From the NCBI GenBank assembly GCA_028715415.1, contig JAQURX010000013.1, forward strand, positions 1 through 50,672: 50,672 nucleotides of DNA. Reading direction: 5' to 3'. The DNA is from Candidatus Omnitrophota bacterium. Its GTDB lineage: Bacteria > Omnitrophota > Gorgyraeia > Gygaellales > Profunditerraquicolaceae. The position numbers and the translations under genes are program-made. Positions 855 to 49,071 of this stretch are shown here, one piece after another; position 1 is the stretch's first letter; each line of letters starts with the position of its first letter. The notes under the pieces are model-generated. The model saw nothing but the letters and a program-made list of their open reading frames with translations. It searched no databases and was not told where the DNA came from.

Positions 855-928
855 ATATAAACTCCTTATTATTAGCTACAAGCTACAAGATTCAAGTTTT
901 TACTTGTGCTCTTGTGCCTTGTACCTTA
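855..928 (-). repeat. Opposed heptamer arrays between dapA and dapB
   Basis: On the minus strand the spacer reads as units AAGGTAC, AAGGCAC, AAGAGCAC and AAGTA. Four A residues follow, then the opposite-sense units CTTGAAT, CTTGTAG, CTTGTAG. The ACAAG and CTTGT cores can pair, so the transcript can form a degenerate hairpin just before the dapB ribosome-binding site. Similar arrays occur in lysA, truA, fabD and before argH. Any regulatory effect on dapB is inference. Confidence 0.7.
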
Positions 929-1807
929 TCAACTTAGCAATCCGTAATCTTTTAAAGCTTTTCTTAGTTTTTCTAAATTCTCCGGTAACATTGAACACAT
1001 TGGCAGCCTTAAATCCGGCTCACACATCCCTAATAAACCCATAGCAGTTTTTACTGGTATAGGATTTGTCTCAATGAACACAGCTTTAATTAAAGGCAAT
1101 AATTTGAAATGAATCTCCTGGGCTTTTGCAATATTGCCTTTTTCAAATTCTGCAACTAAGTTTGCCACATCTTTAGGAACAATATTAGCAACAACAGAAA
1201 TTATCCCCACCCCTCCAATTGATAACACTGGAAGAGTTAAGCTGTCATCTCCAGAAATTAGCTCAAAACTTTTTGGGCATAATTGCCTTACCCTTGACAT
1301 CTGATCAAGGTTGCCAGACGCTTCTTTTACCGCAGCCATATTTTTGCAATCATTAGCTAACCTTGCCATAGTCTCAGGCTCAATATTAACACCGGTCCGG
1401 GAAGCAATGTTGTAAAGGATTATCGGAATCTTAACCGAATCTGCTACAGCTTTAAAATGTTCATATAAACCTTTTTGCGTAGGACGGTTGTAATAAGGAG
1501 AAACCTGCAGAGAAGCATCTGCTCCAGCTTTAGCAGCATGTTTCGTCAGCATCACTGCTTCCTCAGTAGAATTTGAGCCAGTGCCCGCAATGACAGGAAC
1601 TCTTTTTTTCACCTGATCAATAGTAATCTCAATTACTTTGTCATGCTCCTCAAAAGACAATGTCGCAGACTCCCCAGTTGTGCCGCAAGGAACAATCCCA
1701 CTAGTCCCGTTTTTAATTTGAAACTCAATCAAATCCCTCAGCTTTGCTTCGTCGATTTTCCCATTACGAAAAGGAGTAACAATTGCTACAATTGAGCCTT
1801 TAAACAT
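929..1807 (-). CDS. dapA: 4-hydroxy-tetrahydrodipicolinate synthase
   Basis: Class I aldolase condensing pyruvate with aspartate semialdehyde, the entry step of lysine/DAP synthesis. With the start chosen here the protein has 292 residues and begins MFKGSIVAIVTPF, the typical DapA N-terminus. An upstream in-frame ATG at 1822 is less likely, because the bases between it and 1807 include AAGGAG, a good ribosome-binding site for the inner ATG. Visible motifs are GTTGESATL, YYNRPTQKGLYEH, LYNIASRTG and AAVKEASG, which contains the Schiff-base lysine. It overlaps the end of dapF by eight bases, so translation is probably coupled. Confidence 0.96.
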   Translation of the reverse strand: MFKGSIVAIVTPFRNGKIDEAKLRDLIEFQIKNGTSGIVPCGTTGESATLSFEEHDKVIEITIDQVKKRVPVIAGTGSNSTEEAVMLTKHAAKAGADASLQVSPYYNRPTQKGLYEHFKAVADSVKIPIILYNIASRTGVNIEPETMARLANDCKNMAAVKEASGNLDQMSRVRQLCPKSFELISGDDSLTLPVLSIGGVGIISVVANIVPKDVANLVAEFEKGNIAKAQEIHFKLLPLIKAVFIETNPIPVKTAMGLLGMCEPDLRLPMCSMLPENLEKLRKALKDYGLLS

Positions 1808-2654: not shown

Positions 2655-3906
2655 AAAAAATTGGCATTACTTCATTGCGAGTAATATCTTCATAAGTTTC
2701 TCTTTTACGAATCACCTGAACACAATCTTTAACCACCATTACTTCCATGGCCCTCGGCCTTGAATTATAATTTGATGACATGCTAAACCCATATGCGCCA
2801 GCGCTCATTACTGCAATAAAATCTCCTTCTTTTACTTTAGGAAGCATTCTTTCTTTGGCAAAAAAATCCCCACTCTCACAAATAGGCCCGACCACGTCCG
2901 CCTTTTCTTGTGACTTTGTGCCTTGTGCCTTTTTAAGCGGAAGTATATTATGATAAGCCTCATAAAGTGCCGGCCTAATCAAATCATTCATCCCGGCATC
3001 CGTAATAATAAATTTCTTTTTTGGGGTATTTTTAATATATAGAACCTTTGCCACAAGCACCCCGCTGTTTCCGACAATAAACCTTCCCGGCTCTAAAATT
3101 ATTTTTAATCCAGTTTTCTTTAATAGGGGCAAAATTTTTGCAGCATATATTGCTGCGGTCTGAGGGGTTTCATTATTATAAACAATGCCTAAACCCCCTC
3201 CTATATTCAAATACTCCAAAGTTACACTCTTCTTAATCTTAAGAATAAAATCGGCAACTTTTTTTATAGCTGCTACAAAAGGGTCACTCTCGGTTATCTG
3301 AGAACCTATGTGTATATGAAGCCCCGAGATTTTAGCATTCCTAAAATTTCTGCTCATCATAATAATTTTATAGGCCGTCTTTAAATCGATACCGAATTTA
3401 TTAGTAATTTTACCTGTAGTAATGAATTTATGTGTTTTTGCTTCAACATCCGGATTAATACGAATTGCAACCCGCGTAATCTTGCCTAATTTCTTGGCAA
3501 TGCGGTTAATATTGGTTAATTCCGGTAACGACTCCACATTAAAAAACAATATCCCGCATCTAATCGCATCCTCAATTTCTTTATCGGTTTTCCCAACTGA
3601 AGCATAAACAATCTTTGATGCAGGGCAGCCAGCTTTTAAAGCGCGATACAACTCTCCTCCTGAAACAATATCAAGGCCAGAGCCCATATTGACAAGAGAT
3701 TTAAGAATTGCCAAATTAGAATTTGCTTTTACCGAATAGCAGACTAACGCATCTACACTTTTAAAAGCCTCTTTTATCTTAAGATAATGGTCTATAAGCG
3801 TATTGTAGCTATAAACATAAAGAGGCGTGCCATATTTTTTAGCCAAATCCTCAATCTTTACCTTCTCGCAGCATAAACTATTTCCTACATATTTAAATTC
3901 ATGCAT
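2647..3906 (-). CDS. lysA: Diaminopimelate decarboxylase with heptamer-encoded insert
   Basis: PLP enzyme of fold type III that decarboxylates meso-DAP to lysine. The 419-residue length is normal. VCYSVKANSN holds the PLP lysine; HIHIGSQITE, GGGLGI, EPGRFIV and CESGDFFAKER are the cofactor- and substrate-binding blocks. Between ILPLKK and ADVVGP a short Lys/Gln-rich segment (KAQGTKSQEK) interrupts the conserved C-terminal domain just before the catalytic Cys-Glu-Ser. It is encoded by the heptamer array at 2907-2936. The gene overlaps argH by a few bases on its 5' side and runs into dapF, tying lysine formation to the arginine genes in one transcript. Confidence 0.96.
   Translation of the reverse strand: MHEFKYVGNSLCCEKVKIEDLAKKYGTPLYVYSYNTLIDHYLKIKEAFKSVDALVCYSVKANSNLAILKSLVNMGSGLDIVSGGELYRALKAGCPASKIVYASVGKTDKEIEDAIRCGILFFNVESLPELTNINRIAKKLGKITRVAIRINPDVEAKTHKFITTGKITNKFGIDLKTAYKIIMMSRNFRNAKISGLHIHIGSQITESDPFVAAIKKVADFILKIKKSVTLEYLNIGGGLGIVYNNETPQTAAIYAAKILPLLKKTGLKIILEPGRFIVGNSGVLVAKVLYIKNTPKKKFIITDAGMNDLIRPALYEAYHNILPLKKAQGTKSQEKADVVGPICESGDFFAKERMLPKVKEGDFIAVMSAGAYGFSMSSNYNSRPRAMEVMVVKDCVQVIRKRETYEDITRNEVMPIFCE
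2907..2936 (-). repeat. Heptamer array inside lysA
   Basis: On the minus strand the units are AAGGCAC, AAGGCAC, AAAGTCAC and AAG. They encode an extra loop in LysA, read in frame without disrupting the protein. Same family as the arrays in fabD, truA and the dapA-dapB spacer. Confidence 0.75.
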
Positions 3907-5284: not shown

Positions 5285-5330
5285 TCCTCGGCTTTTACTT
5301 GAATCCTGCAACTTGAAACTTACAACCCAA
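5285..5330 (-). repeat. Heptamer-like repeats in the argG-argH spacer
   Basis: On the minus strand the leader of argH reads AAGTTTC, AAGTTGC, AGGATTC, AAGTAAA in seven-base steps. It is a more degenerate version of the AAGNNAC arrays elsewhere in this operon. Confidence 0.5.
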
Positions 5331-12939: not shown

Positions 12940-13698
12940 TTAATATTTTACCTTAACCAAGCATAGCCCACAAGCATGCGCAGTTGGCCCGGCAAGCCTT
13001 CTGTCTTTAGATTTTAGCACGTTTTTAACCGTTCCAACCGGTAATTTATGCTTGCCTACCTCAATAAGCGTCCCAGCTATGTTTCTTACCATGTTATATA
13101 AGAAACCGTTAGCTTCTATATCTATTGTTATCAAGTTACCGCTCTTTTTTAATCGAGCTACCTTAACAACCCTAACCGTATTATGCTTCTTTGCGCCAGA
13201 AGCCTGAAAGCCTTTAAAATCATGCCTGCCTTCAATAACTTTTAGCTCCCTCTCCATCAATTTTACATCCAGAGGGCGCATATAAAAATAGGCAAGATTA
13301 TTTAAAAATGGCGAAGGAAAAGAGCGATTTAAAATACTATATTGGTATACTTTTGATTTTGCGCTAAAACGGCTATGGAAATCAGGCTTTACTTCTTTAA
13401 TCCCGATTATGGCAATATCTTTCGGAAGAAGAGCGTTTATACCTAACTGCAATTTATCAAGCGGAGTTTTTGAACTAGTCAAGAAATTCGCTACTTGAGC
13501 TTTTGCGTGGACACCTGCATCGGTCCTACCGGAAACAATCAGCTTAACTTTTTCCTGCAGGATCTCTCTGAGAACTTTTTCTATCGTTTCCTGAATGCTT
13601 TTCTTGTTCCTTGTTTCTTGTGGCTTGTGCCTATTTTGCACCTGCCAACCACAGTAATTGGTGCCTTCGTATTCAATCTCTACCCTGATATTACGCAT
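12940..13698 (-). CDS. truA: tRNA pseudouridine(38-40) synthase with repeat-encoded insert
   Basis: Isomerises uridines 38-40 in the tRNA anticodon arm. The 252-residue protein shows the catalytic block VSGRTDAGVHAKAQVANF with the nucleophilic Asp near residue 60, plus GFLYNMVRNIAGTLIEVG. Between GWQVQ and IQETIEKVL lies NRHKPQETRNKKS, longer than the usual loop and encoded by a heptamer array. Its start overlaps the asd stop by 19 bases. Confidence 0.95.
   Translation of the reverse strand: MRNIRVEIEYEGTNYCGWQVQNRHKPQETRNKKSIQETIEKVLREILQEKVKLIVSGRTDAGVHAKAQVANFLTSSKTPLDKLQLGINALLPKDIAIIGIKEVKPDFHSRFSAKSKVYQYSILNRSFPSPFLNNLAYFYMRPLDVKLMERELKVIEGRHDFKGFQASGAKKHNTVRVVKVARLKKSGNLITIDIEANGFLYNMVRNIAGTLIEVGKHKLPVGTVKNVLKSKDRRLAGPTAHACGLCLVKVKY
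13603..13633 (-). repeat. Heptamer array inside truA
   Basis: On the minus strand the units are AGGCAC, AAGCCAC, AAGAAAC, AAGGAAC and AAG, in frame near the TruA N-terminus. It is the same seven-base pattern seen in lysA and fabD, more diverged. Confidence 0.65.
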
Positions 13699-19884: not shown

Positions 19885-20793
19885 CTAAACAATAATATCT
19901 GCTTTTTTCTCTACTGTTTTAACTTCAGCATTAACATCTATTCGCCGCATAAGCCCTTTTAACACTTTACCCGGGCCGAATTCAATAAATTTACTTACTC
20001 CTGAATTTAATATGAATTTCATTGAATCTTCCCAAAGCACGCTTGAAGCAACCTGCTTAATCAAATTCTCTTCAATTTCAAATGCTGAGGCAACAGGCTT
20101 TCCGCTTACATTGCTAATAACGGGAATACGAGGAGCATTAATTTTAACGCTATCTAATTCTTTAGCCAGCTTTAAAGTAGCTCCTTTCATAAAAGAAGAG
20201 TGGAACGCACCGCTTACATCCAAAATAATAGCCATCCTTGCTCCAATTTCCTTGGCTAATTTTACTGCCTCCTCTATTCCAGAAGGGCTTCCGGATATCA
20301 CAATCTGTCCGGGGCAATTAATATTCGCTATTTCTGTATTAGTTTTTGCACAAACCTCTTTAACCTTAGAAAGATCAAGGCCAATCAGAGAAGCCATCTT
20401 ACCGGGATTCTTAAGCGCTTCTTCTTCCATGTATTCACCGCGGCGCCTTACCAGATAAATAGCATCTTCAAAACTAATCGCTCCAGCTGCAACCAACGCC
20501 GAGTACTCGCCTAAGCTTAACCCAGCAACAAACTTAACTTGTGCCTTGTCACTTGTGCCTTGTGCCTTATAAGCTTCCAAAGCAGCAATACTTGCCGCAA
20601 CAATCGCTGGCTGGCAATTTTTAGTCTTAGTAAGTTCTTCTTGCGGGCCTTCAAAACAAAGCTTGGATATTGAAAATCCTAAAACTTTGTCCGCCTTATC
20701 AAATACAGCCTTACTTTCGGGGAAAGACTCATAGAGGTCTTTGCCCATACCTATATATTGTGCGCCTTGCCCTGCAAAAAGATAAGCTACCAT
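19885..20793 (-). CDS. fabD: Malonyl-CoA:ACP transacylase with repeat-encoded loop
   Basis: Loads malonate onto ACP. The 302-residue protein starts YLFAGQGAQYIGMGKDL and has the nucleophile elbow GLSLGEYSALV; most homologues have GHSLGE, so Leu replaces the His next to the active serine. SGAFHSSFMK gives the catalytic His. Just before the elbow, YKAQGTSDKAQVKF is an unusual Lys/Gln-rich loop encoded by a heptamer array. Its 5' end overlaps the fabH stop. Confidence 0.95.
   Translation of the reverse strand: MVAYLFAGQGAQYIGMGKDLYESFPESKAVFDKADKVLGFSISKLCFEGPQEELTKTKNCQPAIVAASIAALEAYKAQGTSDKAQVKFVAGLSLGEYSALVAAGAISFEDAIYLVRRRGEYMEEEALKNPGKMASLIGLDLSKVKEVCAKTNTEIANINCPGQIVISGSPSGIEEAVKLAKEIGARMAIILDVSGAFHSSFMKGATLKLAKELDSVKINAPRIPVISNVSGKPVASAFEIEENLIKQVASSVLWEDSMKFILNSGVSKFIEFGPGKVLKGLMRRIDVNAEVKTVEKKADIIV
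20537..20569 (-). repeat. Heptamer array inside fabD
   Basis: Clearest copy of the family. On the minus strand the units AAGGCAC, AAGGCAC, AAGTGAC, AAGGCAC and AAG follow at exact seven-base steps. The array is read in frame and adds a hydrophilic loop before the FabD active-site serine. Confidence 0.85.
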
Positions 20794-48453: not shown

Positions 48454-49071
48454 TTAGAGTTGTTGAAGATATGATTTAATTGCGGAGGAGATGCTAGAGA
48501 AGTCTTTAGCTTGGAGCCACTCTTTTTTAAAGACACTTGCGCCGAAGGAGATGGCACTTGCACCACAGGCAAAATAATCCTTCATATTCTGCGGAGTTAC
48601 GCCTGAACAAGCAAGGAGTTCAATGTCATTAAACGGAGCTTTTATTTCGCGGAAATATTCCGGGCCAAAGAATTTAGCAGGGAAAACCTTTACCATCGTT
48701 GCACCTTCCTTCCATGCTGCATAAATTTCAGGAGGAGTAAGCGCTCCGGGAAAAACCGGAATTTTATTCTTTACACAATACACGACAACTTCTTTAACTA
48801 AACATGGCATTACAATAAATGTTGCGCCTGCATCAAGTGCAGATTTTAAACTATCCATATCCAGCACAGTGCCAGCGCCCAAAACAAGCTTGCCTTGTGC
48901 TTTTTGCTTTGCAGTTTTAATTAATTGCGCGGCTCCCTTAGTATTCATCGTTATCTCTAAAGTCTTTAGCCCGCTTGCAATCACCGTCTCAATTAACGGC
49001 TCAATCTCTCCGGGCTCAACACCGCGCACAATACCTAAAACAGGCTGTTTTTTAAACTCAGCAACATTCAT
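48454..49071 (-). CDS. KDPG/KHG aldolase family protein
   Basis: The 205-residue class I aldolase has LGIVRGVEPGEIEP, LKTLEITMNT, GAGTVLDMDSLKSALDAGA, VFPGALTPPEI and MVKVFPAKFFG with the Schiff-base Lys. These are Eda-family landmarks. The substrate could be KDPG, KDPGal or another 2-keto-3-deoxy acid phosphate; no edd-like dehydratase is visible. It is directly after the DRE-TIM aldolase gene, stop to start within a base, so the two likely share a pathway. Confidence 0.88.
   Translation of the reverse strand: MNVAEFKKQPVLGIVRGVEPGEIEPLIETVIASGLKTLEITMNTKGAAQLIKTAKQKAQGKLVLGAGTVLDMDSLKSALDAGATFIVMPCLVKEVVVYCVKNKIPVFPGALTPPEIYAAWKEGATMVKVFPAKFFGPEYFREIKAPFNDIELLACSGVTPQNMKDYFACGASAISFGASVFKKEWLQAKDFSSISSAIKSYLQQL

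Follow-up and report, generated by a model that had tools for sequence, protein, structure and literature searches.

What is a tandem seven-base repeat doing inside fabD, directly ahead of the codons for the nucleophile elbow of malonyl-CoA:ACP transacylase? The original prediction saw in it the best-preserved copy of a single element, the heptamer AAGGCAC, that spreads or expands in coding DNA, with further copies in lysA and truA. We have followed the repeat through the window (the whole stretch of 50,672 nucleotides in which it was first read), through the genome to which the window belongs (G000), and through related genomes. FabD matches in named genomes put the window in Candidatus Omnitrophota, and the FabD array belongs to an interspersed family of degenerate tandem arrays, short ones of about four units, found in one Omnitrophota order.

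The FabD array and its companions in the window

On the coding strand the array reads AAGGCAC-AAGGCAC-AAGTGAC-AAGGCAC-AAGT, and its translation, KAQGTSDKAQVK, lies directly N-terminal to the GLSLGE nucleophile elbow. Sequence and translation alike bear out its predicted location within fabD and its reading as AQGTSDKAQ (Table 1). The “four exact steps plus a partial unit” originally described hold for the spacing, which is exactly 7 nt at all steps, but not for the units themselves: only three of the four full ones are exact, the third (AAGTGAC) being changed at two bases relative to AAGGCAC, with a last, partial AAGT. In the AlphaFold2 model of FabD (mean pLDDT 96), the array forms loop 78-85, joining helix 57-77 to strand 86-91, and the internal pLDDT minimum, at about residues 81-90, falls at this loop. 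The idea of an insertion just before the elbow is right as to place, the array adjoining GLSLGE, but we reject FabD as a clean insertion: in PDB alignments its loop is 4 aa longer than that of S. pneumoniae FabD (3im8) and no longer (+0) than that of the FabD of 3qat, loop length here varying anyway.

Table 1. Heptamer arrays in the window and the gene that hosts the FabD copy
Feature	Position	Strand	Details
fabD, malonyl-CoA:ACP transacylase	19885..20793	-	302 aa; PDB homologues and AlphaFold2
FabD heptamer array	20537..20569	-	4.4 units, ACAAGGC type; encodes AQGTSDKAQ
lysA array, AAGGCAC AAGGCAC AAAGTCAC	2911..2934	-	encodes KKAQGTKSQE; +2 aa relative to PDB LysA
truA array, ACAAGNN x4 (AGGCACAAGCCACAAGAAACAAGGAACAAGAA)	13600..13635	-	encodes NRHKPQETRNKK; 8 aa not in E. 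coli TruA
Inverted heptamer pair, left arm (AGCTACAAGCTACAAGATTCAAGTTT)	874..899	+	dapA-dapB spacer
Inverted heptamer pair, right arm (AAGGTACAAGGCACAAGAGCACAAG)	903..929	-	dapA-dapB spacer
Weak related copy (CAAGTTGCAGGATTCAAG)	5297..5326	-	argG-argH junction
Weak, partly decayed copy (KTAKQKAQGK)	48889..48911	-	in ORF 48454-49071

The lysA and truA copies are likewise present as described. The earlier list held coding copies only, and overlooked both the degeneracy of the word and an inverted pair in the dapA-dapB spacer (874-929), which folds at -18.6/-21.8 kcal/mol (z about -4.9) and lies immediately 5' of a possible dapB ribosome-binding site (AAGGAG). Allowing up to two mismatches, AAGGCACAAGGCAC has seven matches in the window, against 0.26 expected.

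A degenerate word dispersed through the genome

The genome-wide array search proposed with the original prediction yields 13 matches to AAGGCACAAGGCAC at no more than one mismatch, and 36 to ACAAGNN x3 at no more than two, against none for the reversed control in either case. These counts cover 1.22 of the 1.85 Mb of G000, taken as stretches, 72 kb of which (contig C1, 24001-96000) are N, with any arrays there uncounted. Over 0.84 Mb of this genome, a scan of periods finds 7 over-represented, together with its double, 14. The notion of one fixed heptamer, AAGGCAC, did not survive: the unit in G000 is the degenerate CARGNNN, and one and the same site carries different words in different genera. 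Within the unit, the first four positions are 79-91% fixed and the last three (5-7) vary, in a phase set by CAAG and hence biased toward fixed positions 1-4. The main sub-dialects are CAAGTTT/CAAGTTG and CAAGGCA, and octamers occur too (GTCACAAG x4, in PurL and a fumarate hydratase-like gene, both named from sequence). As with STRR-like repeats, a tandem 7-nt unit thus recurs, a few units at a time, in many dispersed copies per genome, and the word is common to the loci of one genome, with exceptions such as CCAGTAT in G045.

In-frame arrays of G000 lie in FabD, TruA, LysA, IspD, FolC (two), PyrD, PyrK (three), PurD, PurQ, PheT and others. Names other than FabD, TruA, LysA, FolC, PurD, IspD and PyrD were assigned by reading the sequence, and the greedy gene calls, which overcall coding DNA, served only to locate candidate genes and give no estimate of coding enrichment. 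Alignment with PDB sequences places residues found only in the query at the arrays of FolC (12 + 8 aa), PurD (7), IspD (7), PyrD (11), TruA (8) and LysA (2); judged by sequence comparison, IspD and FolC are cleaner cases of insertion than FabD. Intergenic arrays are often inverted pairs, six of which fold with z from -4.9 to -9.7 (dapA-dapB included); two single intergenic arrays gave no fold in the folding test. Coding copies are probably tolerated passengers, and the hairpins between genes may influence how mRNA is processed or how stable it is. Of the proposed spread through coding DNA, the recurrence stands, genome-wide and in many housekeeping genes rather than three, but the restriction to coding DNA does not, given the intergenic inverted pairs.

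Contig C2 of the same genome (L094-L102) also holds a giant open frame, 22777-71331, which runs for 16,185 codons to a 100-N gap; after the gap, 71434-196044 continues for 41,537 codons with no stop to the contig end. Huge proteins have previously been reported for Omnitrophota (PMC11573180).

The same loops, in different words, among relatives

For each gene, orthologous loops from as many as 30 genomes were compared, all of relatives from the same order; the relatives named from the FabD search are metagenome-assembled genomes (MAGs). Loops at four sites (FabD, two in FolC, IspD) were extracted by regular expression, with the IspD of G017 and G028 entered manually, giving 101 site-instances. 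Arrays of 7-mers occur in 36.6% of these and arrays of 8-mers in 7.9%, as compared with 0.1-0.4% in shuffled controls. Periods 5, 6, 9, 10 and 12 give zero arrays in the same set and period 11 a single one (about 1%), and many of the orthologous sites carry no array of any kind. The original prediction was to be given up if the genome held no other copies and distant FabD proteins conserved the loop; further copies are present, and in 31 FabD loops from outside Omnitrophota no array was found at the same threshold.

Mapped onto the protein of the window genome, all ten FabD arrays fall at residues 76-88. Those of IspD lie near 138-152, except for two at the C-terminal end, and those of FolC near 93-107, 210-223 and 254, with one outlier. 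FabD loops are written in ACAAGGC (window genome), ACAAGTT, GCAAGCC, TCAGCTG, CCAGTAT and AGTCATA, along with the octamers AGTGTCAA and CCGTTAAC; IspD loops in AAGGCAC (window genome), TCAGCTN, ATCCAAA, ATCAAAA and GTGTCAG, with the octamers GTCACAAG and GTCGCCAG; and FolC loops in AAGTTTC (window genome), AAGTCAC, ACCAAAC, ACCGACA and ATCAAAA. A single genome, G032, carries an 8-mer array in FabD and a 7-mer array in IspD, both built on the same core. IspD loops measure 21 nt without an array, 42 nt with a 7-mer array and 45 nt with an 8-mer array; the second FolC loop measures 15/18 nt without and 36/39 nt with an array; and FabD loops measure 54 nt (7-mer) versus 57 nt (8-mer). Loop lengths therefore cluster at +21/+24 nt, the common change being three units, with exceptions of 30, 33, 39 and 54 nt in IspD.

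Other inserts are found in array-hosting loops as well. Palindromic ones of the CTGCCTGCCGGCAGGCAG type, encoding LPAGRQ-like peptides, occur in the FabD of G029 (L132) and G050 (L141), the IspD of G015 (L278) and the FolC of G004 (L300). The FabD loop of L150 and L151 bears a REP-like CCCCGCGAAAGCGGGG insert (VIPAKAGI peptide); these two FabD copies, which share the loop, are oppositely oriented on a single contig and may stem from duplication in the assembly. At FolC sites 1 and 2 of G048 (L373) and G049 (L374), larger non-heptamer inserts stand beside short array remnants. The IspD genes of G048 (L365) and G054 (L367) each contain one in-frame TAG, which may reflect a pseudogene, a sequencing error or recoding.

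Arrays in different genes of one genome tend to share their word. The mean sharing of 5-mers between such arrays is 0.226, versus 0.061 for permuted genome labels (p=0.0005), a control that only partly corrects for relatedness; neighbors in the FabD tree carry different words. In G006, the TCAGCTN word has 189 matches versus none for its reversal. To say that all arrays of a genome evolve in concert would be too strong, as different genes carry mixed words in G010, G017, G019 and G023, and CCAGTAT in G045 is confined to fabD, with no other genomic copy. In many cases the word runs on into the flanking codons (AGTTAT in FabD, AAGTC in IspD). In three genomes the reversed control patterns are in excess themselves (TATGACC-type in G003, 32, and G051, 15; GAACANN-type in G023, 24), which suggests that more genome-specific words exist.

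Genera lie about 0.3-0.6 changes/site apart in the FabD tree, yet the arrays are near-perfect and their words different; the arrays must therefore be younger than the genera. Turnover is seen even inside a genus, in genera other than that of the window: at FolC site 1, G048 has AGCCGAT together with an unrelated insert where G049 has AAGTCAA x4, and FabD holds CCAGTAT x5 in G045 and a palindromic insert in G050. On the other hand, the FabD array of G045 recurs, slightly altered, in G039, which belongs to another genus of the family (CCAGTAT/CCGGTAT), so some arrays persist across genera.

Origins, and repeats of the same kind elsewhere

What has to be explained is a distribution that is directly observed: a family of arrays at shared sites, in differing words, with periods of 7 and 8, usual steps of +21/+24 nt, word sharing within genomes, and hairpins between genes. 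The account we favor, and to which we give about an even chance of being right, is an STRR-like interspersed heptamer repeat that is repeatedly born and rewritten at tolerant loops. Each genome would possess a repertoire of a few 7-8 nt words (CARGNNN here; TCAGCTN, ATCAAAA and others in relatives), and arrays would keep arising at a restricted number of tolerant places, either enzyme surface loops or intergenic spacers. New arrays would be seeded by microhomology-mediated template switching from existing ones and then lengthened by slippage, with selection keeping those that are in frame, hydrophilic and located in loops. The typical step of three units (21 nt for 7-mers, 24 nt for 8-mers) would represent the smallest number of units that keeps the frame, and arrays would later decay or give way to another word. 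Mixed words per genome, inherited-looking arrays across genera, lengths off the +21/+24 steps and a copying enzyme that is only hypothetical all count against this account. With regard to copying between loci in particular, the sequences suggest a contrary reading, in that the fabD-only CCAGTAT fits purely local slippage and words that blend into their flanks hint at local seeds.

Indeed, flank-blending words and words with no other genomic copy make purely local slippage a serious rival, if a rather unlikely one; here a polymerase prone to 7-8 nt slippage would duplicate a local heptamer in a tolerant loop, and nothing would be copied between loci. The coexistence of periods 7 and 8 on the same core (FabD and IspD of G032; GTCACAAG octamers and CAAG heptamers in G000) fits this readily, but the sharing of words within genomes and the dialects (36:0 and 189:0 against reversed patterns) would be unexpected from independent local seeds. 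We consider it improbable that the arrays are selected sites for a DNA- or RNA-binding factor (regulatory, nucleoid-associated or DNA-uptake-like) that co-evolves with the word in each genus. Genus-specific dialects, the stable hairpins of inverted intergenic pairs, and fixed followed by variable unit positions (a pattern toward which the CAAG phasing itself leans) are what such a factor might produce; reuse of protein loops in three-unit steps better fits a mutational process, the array is absent at many orthologous sites, and the arrays of G000 were not seen to keep any set position with respect to promoters or gene starts.

Dispersed copies in both orientations, and the palindromic REP/RPE-like inserts in the same loops (FabD of L132, L141 and L150; IspD of L278), bring to mind a small mobile element with a dedicated enzyme, either a REP-associated Y1 transposase or a reverse transcriptase. 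We regard this as very unlikely, since the arrays lack fixed ends or length and neither enzyme is detected in several array-rich genomes. No Y1 (RAYT) transposase was detected in array-rich G003, G029, G030 and G031 (incomplete MAGs, 79-98%), and G000 has two matches, so its presence or absence does not track the arrays; no reverse transcriptase (RVT_1) was detected in G000, G006, G024, G027 and G030 (incomplete MAGs). On the strength of these searches of incomplete MAGs, we reject both the transposase as mover and any copying by reverse transcriptase, whether of the retro-element, diversity-generating or telomerase-like kind. Nor do the arrays match the REP/RAYT palindrome (20-40 bp, conserved ends), as coding arrays are direct repeats and only intergenic ones form inverted pairs, or phase-variable contingency repeats, as the hosts are housekeeping genes and the usual +21/+24 steps keep the frame. 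A long shot, in our estimation, is a sequence-specific trans-acting activity, independent of reverse transcriptase and Y1, that would write about three more units of the genome's own 7-8 nt word into recurrent sites and keep them in step with the evolving word; essential proteins would then bear a record resembling interstitial telomeres. The relatives identified via FabD being metagenome-assembled, one might also think of assembly error, or else of chance in low-complexity coding sequence; this we take to be practically negligible and refuted by the near-zero shuffled and reversed controls, with independent MAGs in agreement and reading frames intact.

The repeated birth and rewriting of arrays that we favor has partial parallels elsewhere. 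Rickettsia palindromic elements place in-frame repeat DNA in housekeeping proteins at tolerated sites, and are longer, defined palindromes. The Omnitrophota arrays are likewise inserted in frame into housekeeping proteins but, unlike these elements, are tandem, short and without fixed ends. DNA uptake sequences are words bound by a competence pilin and preferentially taken up; species dialects and hairpin pairs resemble them, and we know of no tandem 7-mer form of such sequences.

Closer in form are the heptameric repeats of Xanthomonas (GGGAATC/GGGANTN) and Nostoc (GGGGAYT), which are G-rich and have been studied as G-quadruplexes (PMC4692102). According to the accessible part of that account, they share with ours about two degenerate positions, a clear preference for four units and a dispersed, inter- and intragenic distribution; the Omnitrophota words, in contrast, are mostly not G-rich, and the reuse of orthologous loops with differing words in three-unit steps is not reported in that part for Xanthomonas or Nostoc (PMC4692102). 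The P6b stem of the Nostoc trnL intron, built of heptanucleotide repeats (TDNGATT/NNTGAGT), also shows degenerate 7-mers at one fixed, hairpin-forming site with repeated shifts between two unrelated words, but it is a single RNA site with two words, as opposed to many protein-coding sites with many words (PMC4476775). Geobacter metallireducens has four-unit GGGACCG elements (49 loci) and five-unit MTYCTGA pairs, which are similarly four or five tandem heptamers, inter- and intragenic, some as hairpins; the comparison of orthologous sites and words between genera made here is absent from the accessible part of that account (PMC2700814). The TAACTGA direct repeats of Beggiatoaceae and Cyanobacteria are likewise genome-wide short heptamer arrays (2-6 copies), but consist of one word placed mostly directly 5' of start codons, whereas Omnitrophota arrays often lie inside coding loops and have genus-specific words (PMC4679880). 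The GATAGRA satellites of Chloroflexus are repeats of the same broad kind (PMC6749651). A literature search, of incomplete coverage, found no description of heptamer or tandem repeats in Omnitrophota, and “repeats,” “heptamer” and “repetitive” do not occur in the text of the main Omnitrophota genome paper. Short heptamer arrays as such are known; what appears undescribed is the reuse of orthologous coding loops across an order, with changing words, alternation between 7 and 8 nt, and three-unit steps.

For the unexplained origin and spread of the short heptamer arrays known in several bacteria, the orthologous loops provide a natural replicate, in which dozens of genera with and without an array, in 7- or 8-nt steps, have words that can be read against the repertoire of their genome, and which could separate local slippage from copying between loci. 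A caution follows for Omnitrophota protein alignments, where such inserts reflect a DNA process and not protein function. The arrays also keep supplying essential enzymes with new loops of 7-8 aa.
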